Source of the DNA: Aequorivita aquimaris
GTDB taxonomy: Bacteria; Bacteroidota; Bacteroidia; Flavobacteriales; Flavobacteriaceae
DNA length: 45,204 nt
Direction: 5' to 3'
Assembly: GCF_001573155.1 (NCBI RefSeq)
Contig: NZ_JRWG01000014.1
Span: forward strand, 1-45,204
Part shown: one piece after another, positions 27,959-33,476 of the stretch
Layout of the letters: each line of letters opens with the position of its first letter
Numbering within the stretch: position 1 is the first letter of the stretch
Made by a program: the position numbers and the translations under genes
The notes under the pieces: generated by a model
What the model was told of the DNA's origin: nothing
Database searches by the model: none
The model's input: only the letters and a program-made list of their open reading frames with translations

Positions 27959-29407
27959 ATGAGTTTTGATGACGTTTATGAAAAAGAACTTTCTTTTCAA
28001 ACTGACCGCCGAAAAGCTTCAGTAGAGTTTATTAAAATCGTTAGTGATCTTTGGTACGATAAGTCCATTGAACTGGTACTTTTCCGCAACCAGCTTATAG
28101 ATCGTAACGTAAGTGAAATTTTGAATCTTCACGAATATGCTGGCGAATTTGTTCAAAAGCCAATATCAATCTTTGACTCCGTTGAAATCGCGCAGGCCAT
28201 CAAAACCTTGGATCTTCCACCCGCAAAATTGGATATCGGAAAACTAACCTATGAGTTCCATTTAGAGGACGATAAATATTCAAACGCCCTGTCATTTGTT
28301 TCAGACAAATTAAAGGATGCCAAGGAAAGCAAAAACATTGTTCCTAAAGACGTCGTTCTTTATGGTTTCGGAAGAATTGGTCGCTTGTTGGCTCGTGAGC
28401 TTATGACCCGCACCGGTCAAGGAAACCAGCTTCGCCTTCGTGCCATTGTAGTTCGTGGAAAAATGGATCAAACGGTGCTGGATAAAAGAGCAACTTTGCT
28501 TCAATATGATTCTGTACACGGCGATTTCCCCGGAACCGTGCGTACCGACCTTGAAAACAGCGCGTTGGTTATTAACGGGACTACCGTTCATATCATTTCA
28601 GCAAACAACCCTGAAGATATTGATTACACACAATACGGAATTGAAGACGCCTTGGTGATTGACAATACCGGAGCTTTCCGTGATGATGCAGCACTTAGCC
28701 GCCATCTAAAATCTAAAGGAACTTCAAAGGTTTTGCTTACCGCTCCAGGAAAAGGAGTGCCGAACATCGTTCACGGGGTGAACCAAAACGAATATGACCC
28801 GAATAAAGTAGATATCTTTTCGGCCGCATCTTGTACCACAAACGCCATCACTCCTATTTTAAAAGCAGTTGAGGATTCTTTTGGAGTGGTTCGTGGGCAT
28901 TTGGAAACAATTCACGCCTATACAAACGACCAGAATTTGGTAGACAATATGCATAGTAAATACCGTCGTGGCCGTGCTGCGGCGCTGAATATGGTAATTA
29001 CTGAAACTGGCGCTGGAAGTGCCGTTGCGAAAGCATTGCCTTCACTGGCTGGAAAACTTACCAGCAACGCAATTCGCGTTCCTGTTCCAAATGGTTCATT
29101 GGTTGTTTTGAATTTAGAAGTTGCAACCCCTACCACATTGGATGGAATTAATTCCACAATGAAAAAATACGCCCTGGAAGGCGATCTGGTTGAGCAGATA
29201 AAATATTCATTGAGCAATGAGCTTGTATCCAGTGATATTGTTGGCTCATCTGCCCCTGCTATTTATGACAGCAACGCAACTATCGTTACCGAAGATGGTA
29301 AAAATGTAGTACTTTATATTTGGTATGATAACGAGTATGGCTATAGTCATCAAGTAATCCGCTTGGCCAAGTATATTGCGCAGGTTAGGAGATATACATA
29401 TTATTAA
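27959..29407 (+). CDS. gap: Glyceraldehyde-3-phosphate dehydrogenase, long form
   Basis: GAPDH interconverts glyceraldehyde 3-phosphate and 1,3-bisphosphoglycerate. At 482 aa it is about 140 residues longer than the usual 330-340; the extra part is N-terminal (1-130) and helical. The Rossmann motif GFGRIGR is at 136-142, catalytic Cys292 is in SAASCTTNAI, and the partner histidine is H319 in HAYTNDQNL. The strand that normally ends in an Asp selecting NAD reads RAIVVRG, so NADP use is possible. Strong promoter upstream, strong terminator downstream, monocistronic. Confidence 0.94.
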   Translation: MSFDDVYEKELSFQTDRRKASVEFIKIVSDLWYDKSIELVLFRNQLIDRNVSEILNLHEYAGEFVQKPISIFDSVEIAQAIKTLDLPPAKLDIGKLTYEFHLEDDKYSNALSFVSDKLKDAKESKNIVPKDVVLYGFGRIGRLLARELMTRTGQGNQLRLRAIVVRGKMDQTVLDKRATLLQYDSVHGDFPGTVRTDLENSALVINGTTVHIISANNPEDIDYTQYGIEDALVIDNTGAFRDDAALSRHLKSKGTSKVLLTAPGKGVPNIVHGVNQNEYDPNKVDIFSAASCTTNAITPILKAVEDSFGVVRGHLETIHAYTNDQNLVDNMHSKYRRGRAAALNMVITETGAGSAVAKALPSLAGKLTSNAIRVPVPNGSLVVLNLEVATPTTLDGINSTMKKYALEGDLVEQIKYSLSNELVSSDIVGSSAPAIYDSNATIVTEDGKNVVLYIWYDNEYGYSHQVIRLAKYIAQVRRYTYY

Positions 29408-29426
29408 TAGTAATAAGCTATATATA

Positions 29427-29459
29427 AAATCCCGCTATGTTTGTAGCGGGATTTTTTTT
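29427..29459 (+). terminator. Intrinsic terminator of the GAPDH gene
   Basis: AAATCCCGCTA and TAGCGGGATTT pair around TGTTTG, followed by eight T. Confidence 0.95.
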
Positions 29460-29477
29460 GCCTATTTACTACACATG

Positions 29478-29504
29478 TAAAAACAAAGCCGCTTAAAGCG
29501 GCTT
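29478..29504 (-). terminator. Probable terminator of the DinB-family gene
   Basis: AAGCCGCT-TTA-AGCGGCTT (29486-29504) on the minus strand is followed by TGTTTTTA, 65 bases past the stop at 29570. Confidence 0.65.
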
Positions 29505-29569
29505 ATATTGTTTCAGTATTTAAAGGGGCTATGCAGCGGTTACCATTATTGGCAGTAATGTTTTTATTT

Positions 29570-30037
29570 TTAATCCCATATTTCAGGTCGATTAATTTTC
29601 ATCGCTCTTAAATATGATAGAAATTGTCCCGCGTGAACAGATTCGTGATATCCAATTCGCAATAAATATTTTCCGAGGGTTTTCTTTTCTCCATTTCCTG
29701 GGTGAACGATTTCGGTTTGGGTTAATTCTATATCTGAAAATTGTCGAACACTTTCCAAAAATTTTTCTCTATATGGTTCGGCAAACTCAAGTTCACTGGC
29801 TACGCTAATTAAGGGGCGATTTTTCCAAGGTGTTTGGTAATTTGTCATATCTCCTTGGTTGATAATAATATTCCATCCATAATCGGCTTCTAATACGTGC
29901 CTAATCATTTCTATCGCAGACATCGCTTTTTCGTCAGGTTTCCAATTATAATAGTTTTTTGGTAGCCCATTCCATAATTTTATACTCTTTCTCCTTATTT
30001 CAATAAAATTTAAAATTATGAGGTCGGATTGGTTCAT
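29570..30037 (-). CDS. DinB-family metal-binding protein
   Basis: A 155-aa four-helix-bundle protein of the DinB/YfiT superfamily. The three metal-ligand histidines are visible: H47 in MIRHVLEADYG, then H131 and H135 in GYHESVHAGQFLSYLR. Family members include thiol-dependent transferases such as bacillithiol S-transferase; the reaction here is unknown. The gene stands alone at the edge of the accessory segment, after a probable terminator from the GAPDH side and before a 180-bp spacer with no recognised element. Confidence 0.88.
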   Translation of the reverse strand: MNQSDLIILNFIEIRRKSIKLWNGLPKNYYNWKPDEKAMSAIEMIRHVLEADYGWNIIINQGDMTNYQTPWKNRPLISVASELEFAEPYREKFLESVRQFSDIELTQTEIVHPGNGEKKTLGKYLLRIGYHESVHAGQFLSYLRAMKINRPEIWD

Positions 30038-30202
30038 TTTCTTTGTTTAAAGATGTGGCTGCAGATTACTGCTAACGTTTAGTATAAAAGAAGTAGGCCT
30101 GTAAATAAGCAATTTCCTTCCAGATTATCCACAAGCCAAATCTTTTGCATTTATTTTATATTTTTTTTGAAGAACGGGATTAGTGCTTTTCATAGGAGCC
30201 AT

Positions 30203-30851
30203 TGTTGTGTGTAGTGTTTATATTCGGTTGGTGTCTTCTCTCATTGCATCTACGAAATCAGTTTCTTTTATTTTCTTTAAAAATCGCTCGTTCATATCTT
30301 GATTTAATGTGTAAAATTGAACTTCGCCAGAGTAATGAACATAACCTAAAATATCTTGTTTTTTGTTCAAAAAGTGGTTGTGGAAAAATCCGCTATCACA
30401 ATTCGTTAATATTACAAAATGTTTAAAAAACTCTTCAAGATCTACTTTGTCAACTTCTATAGCTCCGTTAAATTTTCCTGTCAGCTTGTGCTTATCAAAA
30501 TATGAGACAGCATTAATTAATGTTTCGTAATCATTTTCTTGAGCGATGTGTTTTGCAATCCACCGCATATTGTGAGCACTTAAGAATATCAGTTGGTTTA
30601 CTTCAAGTAATCCGAAAAGTTTTGATAATTCAGATGTAAGATTTTGTACAATTCTTTCATCATCTTCGTCTGTCAGTTTTACACAATAATATGAATAGAC
30701 TTTTGGAAAATGTGAAAATTCAGTTTGAGTTTCGTCATCAACTTCCCATAGTGGAAAATTCCTGTATTTGATTATCGAAATGTCTCTTGGGATTTTCTTT
30801 ATCATTTTATTTCAGGACGGGTCAACATTACACACAACATGTTTATATACG
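30203..30851. repeat. Inverted and direct repeats bounding gene 30218-30805
   Basis: TGTTGTGTGTA (30203-30213) has a perfect inverted copy TACACACAACA (30829-30839). Beside each lies a direct copy of TGTTTATATnCG (30215-30226 and 30840-30851, 11 of 12 identical). Together they frame a single gene, and the left direct repeat contains its stop codon. Confidence 0.6.
30218..30805 (-). CDS. Hypothetical protein in a cassette-like segment
   Basis: A 195-aa soluble protein of no recognised family. The N-terminal half has PLWEVDDETQTEFSHFPKVY and VYSYYCVKLTDEDDE. Around 76-82 is FLSAHNMRWIAKHI, and the C-terminal half is aromatic (GFFHNHFLNKKQDILGYVHY). There is no signal peptide, membrane helix or catalytic motif I can name. 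Its base composition is lower in GC than the flanking genes, and short repeats frame it closely, which suggests acquisition. Immunity or antitoxin-like roles are common for such solitary acidic proteins, but nothing here proves one. Confidence 0.65.
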   Translation of the reverse strand: MIKKIPRDISIIKYRNFPLWEVDDETQTEFSHFPKVYSYYCVKLTDEDDERIVQNLTSELSKLFGLLEVNQLIFLSAHNMRWIAKHIAQENDYETLINAVSYFDKHKLTGKFNGAIEVDKVDLEEFFKHFVILTNCDSGFFHNHFLNKKQDILGYVHYSGEVQFYTLNQDMNERFLKKIKETDFVDAMREDTNRI

Positions 30852-30920
30852 CATGTTTTTAAAATCTTATTGCTGCTATCCCGCACATGTGCGCCACAGC
30901 ATGCCCCCCAAATATAAAGT

Positions 30921-31283
30921 TTATTTCCCAATCACCTGCATCAAGGTTTCCACCTTCGTTTTCAACACTTTGTTCTCCTCCTCCAGCGCGGCAATGCGCT
31001 GCTGTAAGGGCAGCGCGGGGTCTGGCGCGTTGGTGGTAAAGTGTGCCGGGAGCTGGGCGGCCAGGTCCATAAAAAAGTTGTGGTTTAACCCTAACGAGAG
31101 GTGCCATAGGGTTTTACATAAAGAATTGTCCTGTTTTTGGTACCTCATGATGCTGTTGGGGCTTTTGCCCATAATCTTACTGAGCGTAGCCTTGCGGGTA
31201 CGATGCGCTTTAAAGTACGCTTTTAGCGCAATACCTAATGGGGGCATTGGGCAGTCTTGTAAGGTGTATTTCTTGTAGGCCAT
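30921..31283 (-). CDS. Helix-turn-helix / leucine-zipper DNA-binding protein
   Basis: A 120-aa protein, GC-rich compared with its neighbours. Residues about 15-66 look like a small phage-type helix-turn-helix (GIALKAYFKAHRTRKATLSK then SPNSIMRYQKQ). A Pro/Ala linker (79-92) follows. Residues 93-118 form a leucine zipper with d positions L93, L100, L107, L114 and a positions I97, N104, V111, I118; the single Asn at an a position matches the arrangement in GCN4 and favours a parallel dimer. Directly upstream, and touching the start codon, is an array of 21-bp direct repeats that it may bind. Family unknown; autoregulator, partition protein or replication-control protein are all possible. Confidence 0.7.
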   Translation of the reverse strand: MAYKKYTLQDCPMPPLGIALKAYFKAHRTRKATLSKIMGKSPNSIMRYQKQDNSLCKTLWHLSLGLNHNFFMDLAAQLPAHFTTNAPDPALPLQQRIAALEEENKVLKTKVETLMQVIGK

Positions 31284-31450
31284 AAATGATGGTTTTTAAT
31301 AATTAAATGATGGTTTATAGGTATTAAATGATGGTTTATAGATATTAAATGATGCTTTGTAGTAATTAAATGATGATTGATAGGAGTTTAACTTTGACAA
31401 ATAGCAGTTAAATGACGATTTATAGCAGTTAAACATTTAATTTTATTAAT
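31283..31450. repeat. 21-bp direct-repeat (iteron-like) array
   Basis: Units begin TAAATGATGG at 31283, 31304 and 31325, continue with variant units at 31346 (TAAATGATGC), 31367, 31388 (degenerate) and 31409 (TAAATGACGA), and a partial one at 31430, all exactly 21 bp apart. The best consensus is TAAATGATGGTTTATAG plus 4 bases. Each good unit contains TAAA-N6-TTTA dyad symmetry. An inverted copy, AAACCATCATTAAA, lies at 31504-31517. The array occupies the leader or promoter of the helix-turn-helix gene; the rest of the gap to 31598 holds a terminator and A/T-rich sequence. Confidence 0.9.
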
Positions 31451-31551
31451 TTAAGTATGGAATGTGGTAGATAAACTATGGTAGTTGCTATTTTAAGTAC
31501 AGAAAACCATCATTAAACTTGCAAAAAGCATCTCTTTTTTGTTTGCACTAT

Positions 31552-31578
31552 GCACAAAAAATACGGGCAAAGCCCGTA
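31552..31578 (-). terminator. Intrinsic terminator of gene 31599-32087
   Basis: TACGGGC-TTT-GCCCGTA on the minus strand followed by TTTTTTG, 21 bases past the stop codon. Confidence 0.9.
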
Positions 31579-31598
31579 CCTTTTCAGGGGTTCAAAAA

Positions 31599-32087
31599 CT
31601 ACGGGGTTTCCCCATCATCACTGGGCCTGCCTCCCTGCCCTTCAAAACGCACCTTGAGCCTGTTATAACTGTTCTGCGCGCCGGGCACGCCGGTGCGCGC
31701 CAAAACTTCTATCATGCCATAGGCTCCCGTGGCCATGCCATAGGTTTCATGCCCCGCCATGCGCTTTAAGTCCCGAACCCGCTGTAGAAGATCCATCAAC
31801 CGGGTTTCAATGGTTTCTCCCTGTCCAAAAAGTTGCAGGTCGTTGGCCAGATAGTCTCTGTTGTAAGTCGCATTTACGGCGGCAATGGGGTTGGTGTCCA
31901 TCTCGTTGAGCACCTCTTCGGCAAACACCTTGTTGTTCACGCTTATGGCGTTTAGGCTGCTGCGTTGTTCCGGCGTTAGGGTACTATCCGGCAGGGCGGC
32001 CTGTACCGTTGCAAGACTTTCCAGGATCGTTGTCATAACGTTTGCGTCAATTACCTGGTTCAGTAGGTTTTGGTTTGTGTTACTCAT
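31599..32087 (-). CDS. Hypothetical helical protein, GC-rich gene
   Basis: A 162-aa soluble protein I do not recognise. It appears almost wholly alpha-helical: NLLNQVIDANVMTTILESLA, a Pro-containing turn (LPDSTLTPEQRSSL), then ETRLMDLLQRVRDLKRMAG and TGAYGMIEVLARTGVPGAQNSYNRLK, with a disordered Gly/Asp tail (151-162). No signal peptide. Base composition matches the helix-turn-helix gene downstream and not the core genes, so the two may have arrived together, although a strong terminator and the 21-bp array separate their transcripts. Confidence 0.65.
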   Translation of the reverse strand: MSNTNQNLLNQVIDANVMTTILESLATVQAALPDSTLTPEQRSSLNAISVNNKVFAEEVLNEMDTNPIAAVNATYNRDYLANDLQLFGQGETIETRLMDLLQRVRDLKRMAGHETYGMATGAYGMIEVLARTGVPGAQNSYNRLKVRFEGQGGRPSDDGETP

Positions 32088-32149
32088 AGCTTAAAAATTT
32101 TAAAAGATTAATACTTTCAATTTTCGGAAAAAAACAAAAACCAGTCAAC

Positions 32150-32169
32150 GGGGGAAATCCCCCTTTTTT
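32150..32169 (+). terminator. Plus-strand terminator-like hairpin with no upstream plus gene
   Basis: GGGGG-AAAT-CCCCC followed by TTTTTT. It faces the plus strand, yet no plus-strand gene lies between 29407 and it. It may block read-through into the DUF748 gene or end an antisense RNA. Confidence 0.6.
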
Positions 32170-32300
32170 CTGTATGTGTTTTCCTACTTTTTCAACAGCT
32201 CGCCGGGGGTTCGGCAAACAGTATGTGTAGTTTTATGAGTTCATTAACTGAAAATCTGCAAGCTTTCAATCAAATTTGTTAAAATCATTTATTCTAAAAA

Positions 32301-33476
32301 ATGTCAAACAATCCTAAAAAAAGCCGTTTCAAAAAGAAACGATATATAGTTCCCATTATCATTTTAATCCTTCTCATAGCCTTTCGGCTTTACCTACCCA
32401 CCCTTGTAAAAAATTATGTAAACAAAGTGTTGGCAGACATTCCGGGCTATTATGGGCAAGTGGAGGATATAGACATTGCCCTAATTCGCGGGGCATATGT
32501 TATTAACGGCATGTACCTTAACAAAGGCACGGCAGAAAGCCAGGTGCCCTTTTTAAACTTTCCAAAAAGTGATATTTCTATTGAATGGAAATCACTCTTT
32601 AAAGGCAAAATAGTGAGCGAGATAATTATGACCAGCCCAGAGGTTATCTACGTTTTTGAAGACCAAAAAGACGAAAGCGGAGATGCCAATGTGGACGATT
32701 GGACCAAAGCTCTCACAGATCTTGTACCCATAGACATAAACCATTTTGAGGTTTACGATGGCAAGTTGGCGTTTGTACAGCTTTCCGCAGAGCCCAATAT
32801 CGATTTACAAATCAACAACCTCCAACTCACCGCAGATAACCTGCGTAATGTGGTGGAGAAGGAGCGCATACTCCCCTCACCCATTCGCGCAAGCGGTGTA
32901 TCTATTGGTAAAGGGAAGGTTTCCCTAGAAGGAAATATGAATCTTGTGAAGGAAATTCCAGATATGGACCTTTCCTTTTCGCTGCAGGATGCCGAAGCCA
33001 CGGCACTAAATGATTTTACCAGACACTATGCAGGGCTCGATTTTGACAAAGGAACCTTTGGGATTTTCAGTGAAGTAGCCATCGCTGACGGGCACCTCGT
33101 GGGCTATATTAAACCGCTTTTAACCGATACCAAACTGATTGGTGAAGACGACGGTTTTCTAGGTGTGTTATGGGAAGGATTTGTCGGGTTTTTTAAATTT
33201 ATTCTCAAAAACCAAGGCACAGATACCCTAGCCACAAAAGTACCCATAGAAGGAGATTTGAACAATGTAGAGGCAGGTATATGGCCCACTGTTTTCAATA
33301 TTTTTGAAAATGCCTGGATAAAAGCCTTTACAAGTGAAGTTGATAACGACATTGAGTTTAAGGATGCTTTTCAGGATGAGAATTTAACCCGGGAGCAAAA
33401 ACGGGAACTTAGAAAAAAAGAGCGCGAAAAACGAAGAGAAGAACGCAAAAAGGAACGCGAGGCACGCAAAGGATAA
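32301..33476 (+). CDS. DUF748 / AsmA-like membrane-anchored protein
   Basis: A 391-aa protein with a short basic N-terminus and one membrane helix (about 15-33), followed by a long periplasmic beta-rich region of the DUF748/AsmA-like type (YYGQVEDIDIALIRGAYVI, then VEVYDGKLAFV-like segments such as INHFEVYDGKLAFVQL). The last 35 residues are strongly charged (Arg/Lys/Glu repeats, likely a helical tail). AsmA-like proteins act in envelope lipid or protein homeostasis; the precise role of this one is unknown. Confidence 0.85.
   Translation: MSNNPKKSRFKKKRYIVPIIILILLIAFRLYLPTLVKNYVNKVLADIPGYYGQVEDIDIALIRGAYVINGMYLNKGTAESQVPFLNFPKSDISIEWKSLFKGKIVSEIIMTSPEVIYVFEDQKDESGDANVDDWTKALTDLVPIDINHFEVYDGKLAFVQLSAEPNIDLQINNLQLTADNLRNVVEKERILPSPIRASGVSIGKGKVSLEGNMNLVKEIPDMDLSFSLQDAEATALNDFTRHYAGLDFDKGTFGIFSEVAIADGHLVGYIKPLLTDTKLIGEDDGFLGVLWEGFVGFFKFILKNQGTDTLATKVPIEGDLNNVEAGIWPTVFNIFENAWIKAFTSEVDNDIEFKDAFQDENLTREQKRELRKKEREKRREERKKEREARKG

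Follow-up and report, generated by a model that had tools for sequence, protein, structure and literature searches.

A 45,204-nt stretch of Aequorivita aquimaris DNA (contig NZ_JRWG01000014.1 of assembly GCF_001573155.1; hereafter the window) carries a phased array of 21-bp repeats (31283..31513, strandless) directly in front of a small gene (gene B; 30921..31283, minus strand) whose 120 aa product is the probable reader of the array. With moderate confidence, we interpret B as a locus-specific, array-binding autorepressor, the array and the helix-turn-helix (HTH) of B being swapped together, and the module as heading an integron-like cassette platform in Aequorivita. The usual upstream partner of B is gene A (31599..32087, minus strand), which encodes a 162 aa protein of an unnamed family with an all-helical model, as judged from modelling and profile searches. 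A, the array and B are contained in a 1333-bp repeat (30837..32169, minus strand) that recurs, 98.1% identical, at another locus of this genome, where its flanks differ.

The array was delineated with TRF and a lag scan. TRF identifies a period of 21 with 7.2 copies at 31283-31433, and the best lag in 31283-31520 is also 21 (identity 0.83 over 84 bp, z=15), against a mean of 0.485 (s.d. 0.023, maximum 0.571) in 500 dinucleotide-preserving shuffles of the same interval. The period reported in the first-pass annotation, which had counted seven units and a partial one, is therefore real, but the array is longer than described: stronger units run to ~31429, and three weaker units starting at 31451, 31472 and 31493 hold the 21-bp phase and extend the array to ~31513. 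The first unit overlaps the start codon of B (31281-31283) by one base, in agreement with the earlier description of an array touching this codon, and the single inverted copy mentioned there was located, as AAACCATCATTAAA, at 31504-31517. The TAAA-N6-TTTA symmetry that had been ascribed to every good unit was not recovered in each of them. The motif has only three matches in the array (31304, 31325 and 31409), and dyad symmetry does not exceed column-shuffled chance in either the window array (p=0.61) or its 98% identical sister array (p=0.41). The surrounding GC-rich island is modest: GC content at 31-32 kb (45.5%) is above that of the other kilobases of 25-37 kb (33.7-43.1%), although values of 47-49% are reached elsewhere in the window.

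AlphaFold2 modelling of B (pLDDT 84.5; both A and B were modelled as monomers) yields helices at residues 16-27, 31-38, 42-50, 56-66, 70-76 and 90-119, the first five forming an HTH and the last a coil, in line with the HTH-zipper architecture initially proposed for this gene. Foldseek comparison points to a lambda-repressor-like HTH, with mostly XRE regulators among the 50 matches listed (probability 0.97-1.00) at E values of 0.018-0.11, none of those listed reaching 0.001. The best PDB matches include HipB, SinR, C.Esp1396I and P22 C2, the last of which was also matched weakly in a profile search. In Pfam, B has no HTH match at E≤1 and only weak zipper-like matches, none above cut-off. On the basis of the model and of homologue comparison, B is an XRE-like HTH protein (~14-76) with a C-terminal coiled coil (90-119).

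Homologues of B were retained when their open reading frame had at least 90 aa and the profile match started at or before position 20 and ended at or after position 90, fragments and broken copies being dropped beforehand; one disrupted B (L028) was kept. All 38 distinct B genes in this set have an upstream array with a lag of 21, 22, 42, 43 or 44, each scoring above its own 30 shuffles, which keep base composition only. The first-pass annotation had suggested searching relatives for the same period upstream of the protein, and homologues devoid of repeats, which would have spoken against it, are absent among the 38. Automatic tracing places the array end within 60 bp of the B ATG in 31 of these loci. 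With fragments included, B matches are present in 19 of the 28 Aequorivita genomes. The loci compared in this work comprise both orthologues and paralogues, several of them taken from metagenome-assembled genomes.

The sequence of the repeated unit varies from B element to B element, and array similarity follows HTH similarity. Among arrays of equal unit length, to which the comparison was limited, pairs with an HTH identity of at least 0.9 share on average 18.0 of 21-22 unit positions (6 pairs), decreasing to 15.0 at identities of 0.7-0.9 (4 pairs), 12.4 at 0.55-0.70 (21 pairs) and 11.3-11.9 at lower identity. HTH and array-profile similarity are correlated across the set (r=0.47, n=37, Mantel p=0.0005) and after thinning to HTH identities below 0.9 (r=0.32, n=32, Mantel p=0.0005), in a test that is not fully independent because the elements are related to each other. 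The correlation between the C-terminal part of B and the array is lower in the full set (r=0.20, p=0.0025) and loses significance after the thinning (r=0.09, p=0.13). Because array similarity tracks the HTH more than the C-terminal, zipper-bearing half, B is probably the reader of the array at its own locus. Palindromic units (p<0.05) characterise 10 of 29 B arrays, the window array not being one of them.

The same observations bear on the notion that the array is a functionless minisatellite maintained by slippage. Lag 42 often beats lag 21 in both B and A arrays, as unequal exchange would give, but neutral slippage does not account for arrays of the same period and different sequence that recur at an equivalent position in 38 of 38 B loci and 48 of 60 A loci (see below), nor for an array that co-varies with the HTH, and we regard this explanation as very improbable.

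The window element occupies the site between gapdh and the gene at 32301. Six of the 27 Aequorivita genomes having the latter gene carry an element at this site (A, B or both being seen before the end of the contig or locus), five have gapdh 129-240 bp from the 32301 gene, and the other 16 differ or cannot be judged. In the closest relative at the site (G011), the flank is 97.2% identical over 4637 bp, up to 32199. This genome lacks gene A, and no DNA alignment with the window is obtained for its array or for the HTH-coding half of B, the proteins being still homologous; from B residue ~66 onwards and on into the region behind B, similarity resumes, with 92.9% identity. The same alignment gap is found at the window site in other species. 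Since G011 and these species show a joint gap between conserved stretches, the array and the HTH-coding DNA appear to be replaced together, as a unit exchanged between relatives. Specificities could thereby be exchanged by recombination at two places, the conserved 3' half of B and the DNA upstream of the array, and joint replacement would leave the copies within one genome with, usually, different specificities. Among 26 within-genome array pairs, only that of the 98% identical copies stands out (0.63; next 0.49).

Near-identical copies at two loci, multiple copies in a genome, positions close to contig ends and decayed fragments are also what an ordinary mobile element would produce, and the 1333-bp unit might accordingly be IS- or MITE-like, with the array as the binding site of a transposase or recombinase. 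We consider this improbable. Unlike insertion sequences and transposons, the unit has no transposase gene, neither A nor B matching a transposase family when scanned, and its copies lie at loci that are syntenic between species; on these two grounds a simple transposon was rejected. The 98.1% identical copy could have arisen by gene conversion between the two loci, and gain or loss of a platform also explains the occupancy counts at the window site. A decayed copy in the same genome (L058:2956-3193) fuses the N-terminal 46 residues of A to the C-terminal 43 residues of B and has lost the array, and fragments of the B C-terminus accompanied by the downstream box and attI-like region described below are found in several genomes. 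At the window's site in another locus (L051:12418-13980), an insertion sequence with a DDE transposase lies behind B. A 1.7-kb, 99.8% identical repeat of L049 and L051 was evaluated as a mobile cassette and rejected; since the L051 copy contains the DDE transposase, the repeat is an insertion sequence.

Gene A has a wider distribution, its profile matching 31 of 395 Bacteroidota genomes and 22 of 171 genera. No family scored above cut-off for A in Pfam (24 members scanned, E≤0.01) or in PHROGs, NCBIfam and PADLOC (two members), and neither Foldseek nor VIA-align returned a convincing match to its fold, a result that is not evidence of a new fold. We compiled 62 distinct A loci, of which two were dropped because of too little downstream sequence; L149, where two A genes share one array, is counted twice. 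An array is present within 760 bp downstream of A in 48 of the 60 testable loci, with lags of 21, 22, 42, 43, 44, 63 and 64 only, and in two of the 60 upstream controls (lags 31 and 11; three controls had no sequence), as assessed against shuffles that keep base composition only. Values like 43 and 64 suggest a period set by the DNA helix, with two turns per unit, and not by codons. Two loci (L180 and L186) show a variant layout in which the array precedes A, immediately upstream of the gene and 520-780 bp from the A stop. In L155, an A locus outside the window's class, two more arrays with lags from this set are placed 6095 and 4068 bp before the stop codon of A; an open reading frame alongside looks Cas4-like by eye, and these extra arrays could be CRISPR.

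A and B are frequently but not invariably associated. A lies within 1.2 kb upstream of B in 28 of the 38 distinct B loci and is absent in nine, one of which (L023) keeps a remnant of A, the remaining locus being too short to judge. Conversely, a downstream array is present in 21 of the 33 A loci that lack B, which suggests that the arrays have a use beyond B or are served by another reader. Of the 32 genomes outside Aequorivita that carry A, 7 also have B-like genes, and 10 of 11 B-like loci have arrays above composition-only shuffles, L251 and L256 marginally so and L257 being the locus without one. One genome accounts for four of these ten loci, three of which adjoin A; the other six, distributed over five genomes, are unlinked to A. 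We considered whether an unlinked B-like gene might read an A-linked array in trans, and found this unsupported: the arrays are unmatched in the five genomes (10 comparisons, 0.37-0.47), against an other-genome background with a mean of 0.39 and a maximum of 0.48.

The association of arrays with A raises the prospect that the array is the core of a module serving A, in a DNA-organising or centromere-like A-array complex, and that B later took the array as its operator in some lineages. The frequency of arrays just after A, with or without B, agrees with such a scheme, as does their concentration in the 38 long A loci outside Aequorivita, 21 of which have an array 0-800 bp after A, with only five further arrays found. 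A-only arrays are moreover palindromic at p<0.05 in 6 of 10 entries, two of which represent a single locus with two A genes. A is, however, mostly acidic (median pI 5.1, range 4.5-9.2, 24 members) and conserved while array sequences differ, and is therefore unlikely to act as a sequence reader. The 38 loci outside Aequorivita share no conserved neighbour apart from A; the one cluster of open reading frames common to six of them takes inconsistent positions, and a conserved third gene was not found. B and its array are also found without A, in 9 of the 37 B loci whose upstream sequence is long enough to tell, and other genera have them unlinked to A. We thus deem a primary role for the array in serving A unlikely.

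In plasmid iterons and partition centromeres, a protein encoded alongside binds direct repeats about two helical turns long, and the window array likewise comprises direct repeats of about two helical turns beside the gene of a putative binder. It differs from them in that no Rep or ParA gene was found beside it, the contigs are chromosomal, and tblastn of two A proteins against plasmid and phage collections gave no match. The earlier statement that replication and ParA genes are lacking stands for the few neighbours scanned, among which no such gene was named. Unlike in ParABS, there is no NTPase partner, since A is the only conserved neighbour in the 38 loci outside Aequorivita and is all-helical, without an NTPase family.

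An intrinsic-terminator-like hairpin followed by a T run was detected by hairpin scan after gene A and before the array (31553..31584, minus strand). In the 160 nt that follow A, such a hairpin is present in 20 of 27 loci with B and in 16 of the 35 that lack B, compared with 9 of 62 when all sequences are reversed. The array therefore probably often lies beyond the A transcript and, with A mostly terminated before the array, the promoter of B should fall in or near it. This arrangement is also one of the reasons why transcription of the array into a guide or structural RNA, as in TIGR or CRISPR systems, is hardly credible. Like TIGR-Tas, as far as the accessible part of its description goes (PMC12045711), the locus has tandem units beside a small protein gene, with sequences that vary between loci. 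Unlike TIGR-Tas, it has no Nop-domain match (24 A members at E≤0.01; B at E≤1), and no spacer-like block of ~9 variable columns is visible by eye in the 34 arrays profiled (27 B and 7 A-only arrays). Further points against an RNA are the helical fit of lags like 43 and 64 and the co-variation between array and HTH; an Rfam scan of 29400-32400 also returned no match at gathering score.

Autorepression by B accommodates these observations in the following way. B would dimerise through its zipper, and the dimer would bind, cooperatively and on one face of the DNA, some ten sites spaced two helical turns apart. The array would constitute a dedicated operator in front of B's own gene, and cooperative binding would generate a steep switch that shuts B's own promoter. 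XRE regulators such as P22 C2, SinR, HipB, C.Esp1396I and C.AhdI, with which B is predicted to share its HTH fold from the best Foldseek matches, control their own genes through an operator located there. Their operators number two or three, as opposed to the ~ten phased operators of the B array, and the system described here further involves a partner gene, joint replacement of array and HTH, and a platform context. To our knowledge, a repressor rarely needs ten operators, which counts against autorepression. The self-regulating, array-binding chromosomal protein envisaged in the first-pass annotation is nonetheless probable, given arrays at all 38 loci, HTH-array co-variation and an array that fills the stretch where the promoter is expected. 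The dyad in each unit did not survive, and that reading had missed gene A, the attI-like region, the cassettes, joint replacement and the A-linked arrays without B.

The region behind B contains the elements of the putative platform. Directly after the B stop lies a candidate promoter, TATATTTG (30909..30916, minus strand), conforming to TAnnTTTG, which we take to be the Bacteroidetes -7-like box. This box is present within 60 nt of the B stop in 22 of 38 loci (shuffled mean 1.6, maximum 6), compared with 2 of 37 in a later interval. It is followed by an attI-like region (30821..30894, minus strand) that is 79% identical, over 75 bp, to what immediately follows a tyrosine recombinase gene elsewhere in this genome (G000, contig 10). 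In terms of sequence similarity, 23 of the 38 post-B regions match post-recombinase sequence of Aequorivita at E≤1e-3 (control, 2 of 36), and 15 have no attI-like match. Integron-like tyrosine recombinases were detected in 22 of 28 Aequorivita genomes at E≤1e-60. Among the loci fetched, only two elements have a recombinase alongside, directly behind B and on the same strand in L095, and convergent in L053.

Cassette-like genes follow. The first cassette-like interval in the window (30204..30838, minus strand) starts with GTTGTGTGTA, and the exact complement of this sequence, TACACACAAC, follows its open reading frame (30218-30805, minus strand), which encodes a 195 aa protein to which a Pfam-type scan assigned no family. 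The next interval harbours an open reading frame of the DinB superfamily by family match (29570..30037, minus strand) and has complementary ends by eye. The first bases of the cassette (GTT...) recur complemented just after the open reading frame in 10 of 19 first cassettes at p≤0.05, that of the window included, nine with 9-10 bases and one with 6; the shuffles here keep base composition only. The other nine have no significant complementary ends, and some of these failures probably reflect wrong junctions, which were found by pattern, or multi-gene cassettes. A looser run, again with composition-only shuffles, gave 11 of 35, against 2 of 23 in the negative control. A cassette signature beside A outside Aequorivita was looked for and discarded, appearing in one of 22 long loci (three of them with a B-like gene), no more than in the control (2 of 23). 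Attachment-like sites with self-complementary cassette ends, as in an integron-like system, were noted at L095:5392-6744, L230:1270-3120 and window positions 29480-30840.

As in integrons (IntI, attI, attC, Pc), a tyrosine recombinase is followed by a putative attachment-like site, which is preceded by a promoter-like box, and the start of the cassette is complementary to its own end in 10 of 19 first cassettes. Unlike in integrons, the recombinases scanned fall below the TIGR02249 IntI cut-off of 265 bits (scanned whole: L095, 182.0, and own genome, 195.4; the shorter L053, 165.0), and most elements are A-array-B modules without an adjacent recombinase. In Aequorivita, the A-array-B module would head a platform formed by the promoter-like box, the attI-like region, at which recombination might take place, and the cassette-like genes after B. 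Where a recombinase gene lies behind B, it may fall under the same repression, in a parallel to classical integrons, where LexA limits IntI.

More tentatively, and with less confidence than in the autorepressor itself, these modules may represent an undescribed chromosomal class in Bacteroidota, in which helical A or HTH-zipper B, or both, are tied to a helically phased, freely changing array. Array and reader head would change hands jointly, as a single specificity cassette comparable to those of immunity or incompatibility groups, and so give every locus an address of its own; in Aequorivita, these addresses would mark and control integron-like platforms served by recombinases in trans. The module was not recognisable by title or abstract start in a literature search whose scope excluded most subscription papers. 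Integron-like platforms in Bacteroidota are not wholly new: going by the portions available of each source, Bacteroidota are listed among integron-bearing phyla in a review (PMC8618304), and only In0 elements had been detected earlier in Bacteroidetes, with one complete integron named, in Salinibacter ruber (IntegronFinder 2.0; PMC9024848). The fold of B and its autorepression would be ordinary if confirmed, but ten-unit replaceable arrays, gene A and the platform setting were not recognisable among the results of that search. The system joins phased operator arrays of changing sequence, an unnamed protein family and integron-like cassette capture in Flavobacteriaceae, a combination that none of the papers listed by the search connects, and dozens of natural array-HTH pairs would allow direct tests of the HTH recognition code and of the evolution of orthogonal repressors.

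Several genes within 3.6 kb after B resemble defence genes. A Cap4 nuclease scoring above its Pfam cut-off is encoded at L050:8448-9533. An ORC-CDC6-like ATPase, also above its Pfam cut-off and with an anti-phage NCBIfam match far below cut-off, is found at L049:10540-12441, and L097:5442-6764 has OLD-like TOPRIM and DUF3226 matches, both sub-cut-off.
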